From: Candidatus Poribacteria bacterium | Lineage (GTDB): Bacteria > Poribacteria > WGA-4E > WGA-3G | NCBI GenBank assembly: GCA_022827885.1 | Contig: JAJEIP010000054.1 | Span: 1 to 62,571, forward strand | Reading direction: 5' to 3' | DNA length: 62,571 nt | Shown: one piece after another, positions 37,784 to 40,534 of the stretch | How positions within the stretch are numbered: position 1 is the stretch's first letter | How the letters are laid out: each line of letters begins with the position of its first letter | Made by a program: the position numbers and the translations under genes | The notes under the pieces: model-generated | The model's database searches: none | What the model was told of the DNA's origin: nothing | What the model saw: only the letters and a program-made list of their open reading frames with translations

Positions 37784-38620
37784 ATGGCAAATGGATTCAC
37801 ACGATTTTTTAAAGGTATCTGGTACACACTGTCAGGAAAGGCACACGAATCCGCAGATAGAATGATGGAAAACCCCGAAGCCGTCAGAGGCGCTTACGAA
37901 GACATCATTAACGACAAAAAGGGGAATATCCAACGCTATAAGGCAGCAATCGGGCAGCTTATCGCGCTCGTTGAACAGAAAAGATCTACGGTTAAAAGCC
38001 TGACCGACGAAGTCGAACGACTCGAAGAACTCAAATCTGGAGCGATCGCCAAGGCACAGCAGACGGCTGCCCAATTACAAGGCGAAGGACTTTCACAGGA
38101 AGAAATCAAGGTGCACAGTGAATACACGCGATGTGTCGCTGCTTATCAAGACTTCAATTCCAACTTGGTGGAGAAAACAGGTCGGATCACGGAGCTCGAA
38201 GGCGAGATTGAAAGTGCGCAGGCTGATATTGAGTCCCACAAACTTCAGATTACCAGTTTACATCGCGATTTAGACAAGATCAAATCCGAGCAGTCTGAGG
38301 CGGTTGCGGATCTGATTACCGCACGGGAACAAGAGGAAATTGCGGATATGCTCTCCGGTATCAGCATGGACGGGACCTCCGCTGAATTGACCCGTATGCG
38401 TGAAATACGTGAGAAAGCGAAAGCGCGTTCAACAGTCGCACAGGAATTGGCTGGCACCGATTCAAAAAGCGAAGAGGAAGAATTCCTCACTGCCGCGCGT
38501 GCCTCTGCTACCAATAACGAATTCGATGCCTTAATCTTCGGCGCCCAGCAAACCGACGCAAAGACAGAGACGGAGACTCCCAAAAAGACAACCGATTCCG
38601 ACTCCGAATTGCCGGTATAA
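37784..38620 (+). CDS. pspA: PspA/IM30 (ESCRT-III superfamily) protein
   Basis: A 278-residue PspA/Vipp1-type protein. The opening MANGFTRFFKGIWYTLSGKA resembles the amphipathic membrane-binding helix; residues about 25-195 form the long coiled coil with ENPEAV-like MMENPEAVRGAYEDII, and a charged, disordered tail ends in DSELPV. PspA proteins polymerise on damaged membranes and share the ESCRT-III fold. Sixty-six bases downstream lies an AAA+ ATPase, suggesting a remodelling pair. AGGAG lies 9 bases before the ATG. Confidence 0.9.
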   Translation: MANGFTRFFKGIWYTLSGKAHESADRMMENPEAVRGAYEDIINDKKGNIQRYKAAIGQLIALVEQKRSTVKSLTDEVERLEELKSGAIAKAQQTAAQLQGEGLSQEEIKVHSEYTRCVAAYQDFNSNLVEKTGRITELEGEIESAQADIESHKLQITSLHRDLDKIKSEQSEAVADLITAREQEEIADMLSGISMDGTSAELTRMREIREKAKARSTVAQELAGTDSKSEEEEFLTAARASATNNEFDALIFGAQQTDAKTETETPKKTTDSDSELPV

Positions 38621-38686
38621 CGCGCCACAAAAACGCAGTATCTCACGCACAGTTGCGTCACCGCGAACAGAAGGGAGCGATGAGCC

Positions 38687-40534
38687 ATAGCCGTTAAAAG
38701 TCCAACCTATACATTCCTGAAAGAAGCCGGACTGCTCATCAATTCGGGGACCTCTCGTAGCCTTGTCCTCTCTGGAAATATCCACGACCTCTTCTTCGTC
38801 CGAGACGGAGATGCTACGGATTATGTTCCACTCGTCCCCTTCCTGACCCGTAGCTGGGACATTCCAGGGTTCATCCTAATCGTTTACGAACTTAACGGAC
38901 CCATCCGATTTGCGAAAGCGGCTGAACGTGAAAAGGTTAAACATGCGTTCAATCTATGGCGCGGCGCAACGGAGGCACATCTTGACACAAATGCCAGCAC
39001 GGGTGCCTCCCGTCCAATACAAGCAGGTGTTGAACGCACCGCCCCTACCGAAGACACCTCTTTTACGCAGTACATGAATGATGCAATCGGTAGTCCTACA
39101 TTGGCACTTGAACTTCTACGGCAGTTCTGCCTGCTCTCCCGCACGACAAATCCTCAAGGTGAAAAACGACTACAGGAAAAATTGATAATCCTGATTGAAG
39201 CAACCGACATGTTGCTACCGGAAGGCGAAATCCGGAGTTTGTCTCTACAGGATAGACACCGGGTCAGTATCGTTCAGGATTGGATATCAGATTCCAATTT
39301 CATGGAAGGGAACGATACCGTGATTTTCATCGCGGAATCAGCAAGCCTCTTGAACTCTCGGATCACACGGCTGCCACAGGTCATCATCCTCGAAATACCG
39401 GCACCCGGGATGGTAGAACGCCAACATTTTATCTCGTGGTTTAACAACACACCGAAGTTAGTGGAAAAACCGCTAAACCTTTGGGGGACACAAGCCCAAT
39501 TGGCGATGCTCACAGCAGGCTTATCCATTCAAGCCCTGCGACAGATGCTCCTTTCGGCGCGCTACTCCGGTGAGAGATTACAACCTGAAACTGTTATCGA
39601 CAAAGTGTCCGAATTCATCCAAGCACAGTTAGGCGATGATGTCGTAGAATTCAAAAAGCCTGCACACAGCCTCAAGGACATCGTTGGCAACCAAAAATTA
39701 GTGGATTTCCTGAAGACGCAATTGATTCCGCGTATCACCTCAACCGGTCCCGATGCGATCCCCGGTATGAGCGTCTGTGGTCCCATCGGTAGCGGGAAAA
39801 CGTTCATTTTCGAGGGACTCGCCGGTGAACTCGACATCCCTGTGCTCGTCCTCAAGAATATTCGGAGTATGTGGTTCGGCCAAACAGACGTTATTTTTGA
39901 ACGACTCCGACGCTTACTGATGGCTCTTGTGAAAGTGCTTATCTTCGTTGATGAAGCGGACACCCAATTCGGCAATGTCGGGACGGATGCCCATAGCACA
40001 GAACGGCGTTTGACAGGAAAGATACAGGCGATGATGTCGGATCCGCAACTCCGCGGCAACATCACGTGGCTTCTGATGACCGCTCGGATTTATCACCTTT
40101 CTCCCGACCTACGGCGCGAGGGCAGAGTCGGGGATATGGTAATCCCGGTGCTCGACCCGAAAGGCGAGGATCGCGAGGCGTTCCTCCGCTGGACGCTTGC
40201 CCAAGTTCTTCCGGGTCCTCTGTCTGAAGATGCAGTTGAACGACTTGTGAAACTGACAGAAGACTATTCCGCGGCGAGTTTCGCATCGCTGCGTTCCGAC
40301 TTAGAAGCCGCCAGTCTCATCAAGCAAGATAAACTAACACTCGATGAAATCATCGCCGTCGCGGAAGACCGCATCCTACCGAACATCGGTCCGATTCGAC
40401 GCTATCAAACCTTGCAAGCCCTCATCAACTGCACACGAAAATCCCTACTCCCCGGCGACTATTCCGCTGACATTCGAGAATCGTGGATGAAACAAATTGC
40501 CCACCTTGAAGCGATAGGTGTTAGAGATCGATAA
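38687..40534 (+). CDS. AAA+ ATPase partner of PspA, start codon irregular
   Basis: A protein of about 615 residues with Walker A GPIGSGKT (about 365-372), Walker B VLIFVDEAD (Asp422, Glu423) and arginine-rich LSPDLRREGR. The N-terminal domain reads LVLSGNIHDLFFV and YVPLVPFL. An ORF from the first ATG (39074) loses 129 residues of this clearly coding region. The frame extends back only to 38684, after a TGA; the possible start is ATA at 38687, behind AAGGGAG. An ATG at 38680 with that ribosome site is one base out of frame and stops after five codons, so a one-base insertion or an assembly error is equally likely. It overlaps the convergent Gfo/Idh gene by 14 bases. Confidence 0.75.
   Translation: MAVKSPTYTFLKEAGLLINSGTSRSLVLSGNIHDLFFVRDGDATDYVPLVPFLTRSWDIPGFILIVYELNGPIRFAKAAEREKVKHAFNLWRGATEAHLDTNASTGASRPIQAGVERTAPTEDTSFTQYMNDAIGSPTLALELLRQFCLLSRTTNPQGEKRLQEKLIILIEATDMLLPEGEIRSLSLQDRHRVSIVQDWISDSNFMEGNDTVIFIAESASLLNSRITRLPQVIILEIPAPGMVERQHFISWFNNTPKLVEKPLNLWGTQAQLAMLTAGLSIQALRQMLLSARYSGERLQPETVIDKVSEFIQAQLGDDVVEFKKPAHSLKDIVGNQKLVDFLKTQLIPRITSTGPDAIPGMSVCGPIGSGKTFIFEGLAGELDIPVLVLKNIRSMWFGQTDVIFERLRRLLMALVKVLIFVDEADTQFGNVGTDAHSTERRLTGKIQAMMSDPQLRGNITWLLMTARIYHLSPDLRREGRVGDMVIPVLDPKGEDREAFLRWTLAQVLPGPLSEDAVERLVKLTEDYSAASFASLRSDLEAASLIKQDKLTLDEIIAVAEDRILPNIGPIRRYQTLQALINCTRKSLLPGDYSADIRESWMKQIAHLEAIGVRDR

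Follow-up and report, generated by a model that had tools for sequence, protein, structure and literature searches.

A gene pair in the genome of a sponge-type member of the Poribacteria, in which pspA is followed by the gene of a tandem AAA+ ATPase, is conserved and ancient, and the two products probably form a dedicated bacterial remodelling pair of the ESCRT-III/Vps4-like kind. PspA/Vipp1 proteins belong to the ESCRT-III superfamily. The pair was found in a stretch of Poribacteria DNA of 62,571 nt (the window), with both genes on one strand and at the positions given in the initial annotation, which had read them as an ESCRT-like pair (pspA at 37784-38620, AAA+ open reading frame ending at 40534). 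The features of the pair are the following:

37784-38620, plus strand: pspA, a divergent PspA/IM30 of the ESCRT-III superfamily, 278 aa (open reading frame, profile and model).
38543-38617, plus strand: PspA tail, residues 254-278, a disordered variable linker and the terminal ...SELPV (pLDDT below 50; entropy).
38609-38617, plus strand: invariant C-terminal LPV, LPL or LPI (LPE in other phyla), a candidate recruitment or threading tag (tail comparison).
38670-38677, plus strand: Shine-Dalgarno-like GAAGGGAG, 9 nt before the ATA (AGAAGGGGG kept there in relatives).
38681-38683, plus strand: in-frame TGA just 5' of the ATPase frame.
38687-38689, plus strand: ATA start codon of the AAA+ gene (conserved in the genus).
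38687-40534, plus strand: tandem AAA+ ATPase, 615 aa, stop TAA (PF00004, E 2.9e-14, residues 363-482).
38687-39661, plus strand: N-terminal degenerate AAA+ domain, residues 1-325 (AF2 model and PDB structure matches).
38759-38794, plus strand: site of the missing P-loop, SLVLSGNIHDLF, residues 25-36, no GK[ST] (model and alignment).
39182-39199, plus strand: degenerate Walker B LIILIE, residues 166-171 (model and alignment).
39779-39802, plus strand: Walker A GPIGSGKT of the active AAA domain, residues 365-372 (sequence).
39872-39880, plus strand: pore loop 1 WFG, residues 396-398 (WFG in 48/48 Poribacteria and in nearly all others).
39938-39955, plus strand: Walker B LIFVDE, residues 418-423 (alignment).

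The association of PspA with a tandem AAA protein was already known, since Ravi et al. (2024, mSystems; PMC11237479) reported bacterial PspA beside a tandem protein whose N-terminal AAA+ domain is inactive and is followed by a second AAA+ domain; the longer operons of their main description add an ABC ATPase, a permease and a PBPB-OmpA protein, and ESCRT-like remodelling was proposed there. The window resembles that system in having pspA adjoining the gene of such a tandem AAA+ protein, likewise with an inactive first domain, and differs from it, as there described, in being a stripped two-gene form without the transporter genes, which are optional in that system, and in the AUA start of the ATPase gene (PMC11237479). 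Genes for an ABC ATPase, a permease or a PBPB-OmpA protein do not adjoin the pair of the window. A sigma-70 consensus scan of the 256-nt intergenic region revealed no promoter-like site on the plus strand, so the promoter of its own that had been ascribed to the unit was not recovered; a separate transcription unit remains plausible, since the gene upstream of pspA is divergent.

Conservation of the pair was assessed in 85 Poribacteria genomes with presence thresholds of E<1e-60 for the ATPase and E<1e-8 for PspA. Both proteins were present in 64 genomes, the ATPase only in two, this PspA only in none and neither in 19, counts that are not independent events because the genomes are related. 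In the two genomes with the ATPase only, the short contigs end just upstream of its gene. Chance adjacency of pspA and the AAA+ gene is ruled out by these co-occurrence counts. Nearly every relative with a long enough contig carries pspA upstream of the AAA gene, on the same strand and in the same order. Orthologues of the ATPase, 51-57% identical over nearly the full length, occur in GTDB genomes of Sumerlaeota, Verrucomicrobiota, Hydrogenedentota, Acidobacteriota, Planctomycetota, Myxococcota, Desulfobacterota and CSSED10-310, and an operonic pspA lies 5' of the AAA gene in Sumerlaeota, Verrucomicrobiota, Acidobacteriota, Planctomycetota, Myxococcota, Thermodesulfobacteriota/Pseudomonadota and CSSED10-310. 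Linkage extends to at least seven phyla beyond Poribacteria; upstream, same-strand pspA was present at 20 of the 23 non-Poribacteria loci for which 4.7 kb or more of upstream sequence was available, and of 9 cases that lacked pspA in the fetched flank, 7 had it in the genome, with a product ending in LPE or LPEA. The proximity seen in the window recurs, then, both in Poribacteria relatives and in other phyla. The ATPase clade is separate from tandem AAA paralogues that are not linked to pspA.

Several side observations concern these loci. The unlinked tandem AAA paralogues adjoin UPF0182 membrane proteins, which suggests another partner for the same architecture. An ORF of about 600 aa with no Pfam match lies between pspA and the AAA gene in g2 and g4, and in G081 an ORF of 385 aa, transposase-like by eye only, is inserted between intact copies of both. 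In g4, extra, partly degenerate pspA copies are placed 5' of the main one, some with internal stops. A defence system was considered and rejected, the PADLOC matches being weak AAA and coiled-coil cross-hits.

Outside Poribacteria the usual gene order is OmpA-SBP, TM protein, pspA, SBP, permease, ABC ATPase and AAA, and one Poribacteria relative (G017) keeps the full operon. In the family of the window, SBP is absent from all six near-complete genomes tested and OmpA-SBP is unlinked or lost; neither was found in the window's genome or in the finished genomes of its genus, both being present in relatives. The operon decays stepwise within Poribacteria, and, since the family of the window lost the binding protein of the transporter and kept pspA-AAA, usually adjacent, this pair is the retained core of the operon, the demonstration of which is new as far as checked. 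Because the pair lies among OmpA-SBP, SBP, permease and ABC ATPase genes in most phyla, the ATPase could be at the service of the transporter: PspA and the AAA+ protein would be accessory to a NitT/TauT-type ABC importer, with the ATPase acting on transporter subunits and not on PspA; their role would lie in assembly, in quality control or, together with OmpA-SBP, in anchoring to the envelope. Divergent outgroup clades, which keep ABC genes with the AAA gene, fit this arrangement, but the persistence of pspA-AAA where SBP is missing and OmpA-SBP is unlinked or lost, and the location of the invariant tail on PspA, make it an unlikely one.

The PspA of the window is divergent. The PspA_IM30 profile (PF04012) scores 27.9 bits on it against a cut-off of 33.9 (profile positions 3-206 of 220), the orthologues of G024 and G074 exceed the cut-off (35.9 and 35.5), and profile-profile comparison with canonical PspA gave E 5.5e-5 and a probability of 66% over 210 columns; by sequence, membership of the family is thus weakly indicated. 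Structure and profile-profile comparison were used because a search of the PDB with the orthologous PspA profile gave only weak Vipp1 matches intermixed with coiled coils. In the AF2 model, helices a0 (residues 4-15), a1 (31-100), a2/3 (112-195), a4 (198-224) and a5 (227-241) are followed by a disordered tail, and the best PDB match by Foldseek is Vipp1 (6zvr, E 2e-3), with coiled-coil proteins scoring close behind. The predicted layout, namely an amphipathic helix a0, a long hairpin and a4/a5, is that of PspA/Vipp1. Three more PspA paralogues are encoded elsewhere in the genome, two of them fused to a membrane N-terminus. In two tandem PspA paralogues (G000:C1), the N-terminal extension resembles an RDD-type membrane domain, as judged by eye.

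The tail joins a variable linker to an invariant end. The linker, residues 254-271, is the most variable part of PspA in 68 sequences (2.0 bits of entropy), and Leu276-Pro277 has an entropy of 0, Leu-Pro always preceding the last residue. The end is LPL, LPV or LPI in Poribacteria and LPE in 20 of 20 non-Poribacteria sequences; PspAs encoded outside the fetched AAA flank also end in LPE, and one in LPEA. The Leu-Pro end is absent from canonical PspA paralogues and from the divergent outgroup-operon PspAs whose tail was read. Since a disordered linker with an unchanging peptide at its end resembles an AAA+ recruitment or initiation tag, the Leu-Pro-x end is a candidate for such a tag, comparable by analogy to the MIM motifs of ESCRT-III. 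Not every pair of this kind needs it, because two divergent outgroup clades (G025/G026 and G005/G015) lack it, where the tail was read, yet keep PspA and AAA. As far as checked the motif looks new, and it is absent from the main description of Ravi et al. 2024 (PMC11237479).

The initial annotation had assigned to the ATPase a dedicated N-terminal domain (SGNIHDLFFV); this turned out to be a degenerate AAA+ domain that lacks a P-loop. In sequence searches against Pfam and the PDB, only the C-terminal AAA domain of the ATPase is detected, and, since a sequence profile of the N-terminal domain found nothing in the PDB, it is only the fold that reveals its AAA+ nature. The AF2 model of the first 325 residues (pLDDT 86.9, pTM 0.83) has 919 PDB matches at E<=1e-3 with TM of about 0.4-0.5; the top ones listed are all AAA+ or FtsH-type motor proteins, and Pex1/Pex6, TRIP13, p97, ATAD1 and Rpt subunits are among the matches. 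The domain therefore belongs to no family with a clearly unrelated role, and an MIT-like or other adaptor is ruled out by the AAA+ fold. It is almost certainly inactive, since SGNIHDLF and a beta hairpin replace the P-loop and its Walker B has lost the Asp while retaining the Glu. The ATPase is therefore a tandem AAA protein, with a dead D1 and an active D2 bearing the WFG pore loop. In the alignment the active domain shows GPIGSGKT, WFG, VDEAD and Arg fingers (LRREGR); judged from sequence, its Walker A and B, aromatic pore loop and Arg fingers would be those of a substrate-threading AAA. Hydrolysis may be unusual, because Ala stands in place of the sensor-1 Asn (T-A-R).

The arrangement shares several elements with the eukaryotic and archaeal ESCRT-III-Vps4 (CdvB/CdvC) systems: a polymer-forming protein of ESCRT-III fold with a flexible C-terminal tail, and an AAA+ partner with aromatic pore loop 1, Walker A and B and Arg fingers, all of which are present in the ATPase of the window. 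In contrast to Vps4/CdvC, this ATPase has no MIT domain and carries two AAA domains, the first of them dead, and the tail motif of PspA is a terminal LP-x and not an MIM helix as in ESCRT-III. The CdvC model gives 30.8 bits on it against a cut-off of 650. By membership, hence, the ATPase is not Vps4, although it may well work alike.

PspA could instead be the regulator of the ATPase and not its substrate. In E. coli, PspA inhibits the AAA+ activator PspF, so that a pairing of PspA with an AAA+ protein has an established precedent, and the pair would then be a stress-gated chaperone, to which linkage and co-occurrence fit equally well. However, PspF is an enhancer-binding activator of the NtrC type, whereas the ATPase of the window lacks such Pfam domains and its domains resemble CDC48-type AAA; neither its model nor its Pfam matches contain a DNA-binding or other effector domain, and the fixed end of the disordered tail resembles an engagement site for the pore. 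We consider regulation by PspA somewhat less likely still than service to the transporter. That the two are mere operon neighbours sharing stress regulation, with no direct molecular partnership, is very improbable in view of their co-occurrence in Poribacteria genomes (64/2/0/19) and of an adjacency that outlives large rearrangement of the operon and is conserved across several phyla.

The spacing of 66 nt between pspA and the AAA+ gene, as first annotated, holds only with ATA 38687, a non-canonical codon, as the start of the ATPase, since the frame is open from 38684 and contains no ATG, GTG or TTG until codon 130 (the first in-frame ATG, at 39074). In the set of 41 long ORFs of the window this offset is the largest, and the runner-up has 43 codons. 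The orthologues of the genus all begin with ATA (37/37). ATA accounts for only about 16% of the isoleucine codons in these genes, and, of the 27 conserved Ile columns, the start codon is the only one fixed as ATA. Many relatives in the genus have in-frame stops 1-7 codons 5' of the ATA, and AGAAGGGGG is kept 9 nt before the start. In Poribacteria outside the genus, the start is mostly ATA or ATC (g3, g4, g7 and g8): either in other genera of the family, ATA in two genera of another family of the same order, and ATG in two genera, g2 and g10; one genome of g4 may start at a GTG that lies a few codons 5' of the usual site. In other phyla the orthologues have mostly ATG at or near the same site. 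On these sequence grounds, ATA 38687 is taken as the genuine start. A true start elsewhere, for example at an ATG further downstream or at a frameshifted codon further upstream, which would leave the N-terminal domain partly untranslated, would accord with the great rarity of AUA as a start codon and with an in-frame ATG about 16 codons downstream in many genus relatives, but the open frame of the window, the upstream stops, the fixed ATA with its Shine-Dalgarno sequence and the ATG of distant orthologues at or near the same position leave it the most improbable of the alternatives.

AUA and AUC are among the codons discriminated against by IF3. The ATPase gene shows the sequence signature of IF3-discriminated genes, a conserved AUA/AUC/AUU start with a Shine-Dalgarno sequence, and infC of the same genome also has an ATA start with a Shine-Dalgarno sequence, as in related genera (ATT in more distant ones). 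Gene callers restricted to ATG, GTG and TTG would shorten the predicted infC. The likeness to infC suggests that the dosage of the ATPase may be limited by IF3. A comparable arrangement is sigR-rsrA of Streptomyces, cotranscribed partners in which a conserved, IF3-repressed GTC start sets the SigR-RsrA ratio; it differs in the codon (GTC instead of ATA), in being a sigma/anti-sigma pair and in that IF3 dependence was shown there, whereas we only infer it here (PMC5472188).

Of the initial ESCRT-like reading, the conserved pair, the threading-type AAA, the PspA/Vipp1-like model and a disordered tail with a fixed end stand, whereas the dedicated N-terminal domain and the promoter do not. The analysis shows the gene pair with its conservation and co-occurrence, the architectures of both proteins, the tail motif and the start codon; taking these together, we propose a model for the pair, in which physical interaction, direction of action and IF3 control are what we infer. 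The divergent PspA would bind the membrane by its N-terminal amphipathic helix and polymerise by its long helical hairpin, as in the rest of its family, and its disordered tail would offer the fixed Leu-Pro-x peptide to the ATPase. The tandem AAA+ protein would assemble into a double ring, in which the dead N-terminal AAA domains act as a scaffold and perhaps receive the tail. The C-terminal domains, using ATP and the WFG pore loops, would thread PspA subunits out of the polymer, which would lead to its recycling or remodelling, and the AUA start, discriminated by IF3, would keep the ATPase scarce relative to PspA. In this complete form, an ESCRT-III disassembly machine in which a Leu-Pro-x code on PspA is read by a dead AAA+ domain and dosage is set by an IF3-gated AUA, the model is tentative, possible more than probable.

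Beside the known association, what is new, as far as checked, lies mostly in the tail motif, the AUA start and pspA-AAA as retained core. A Vps4-like ATPase for bacterial PspA/Vipp1 was posed as an open question in 2021 (PMC8281802), and in 2024 chaperones or PspF were still only speculated upon (PMC11746142). The pair described here makes that question directly testable, because it is minimal, with two genes, and has a defined three-residue tail to mutate. Moreover, the conserved AUA would clearly exemplify a non-canonical start codon by which the stoichiometry of two partners may be set.
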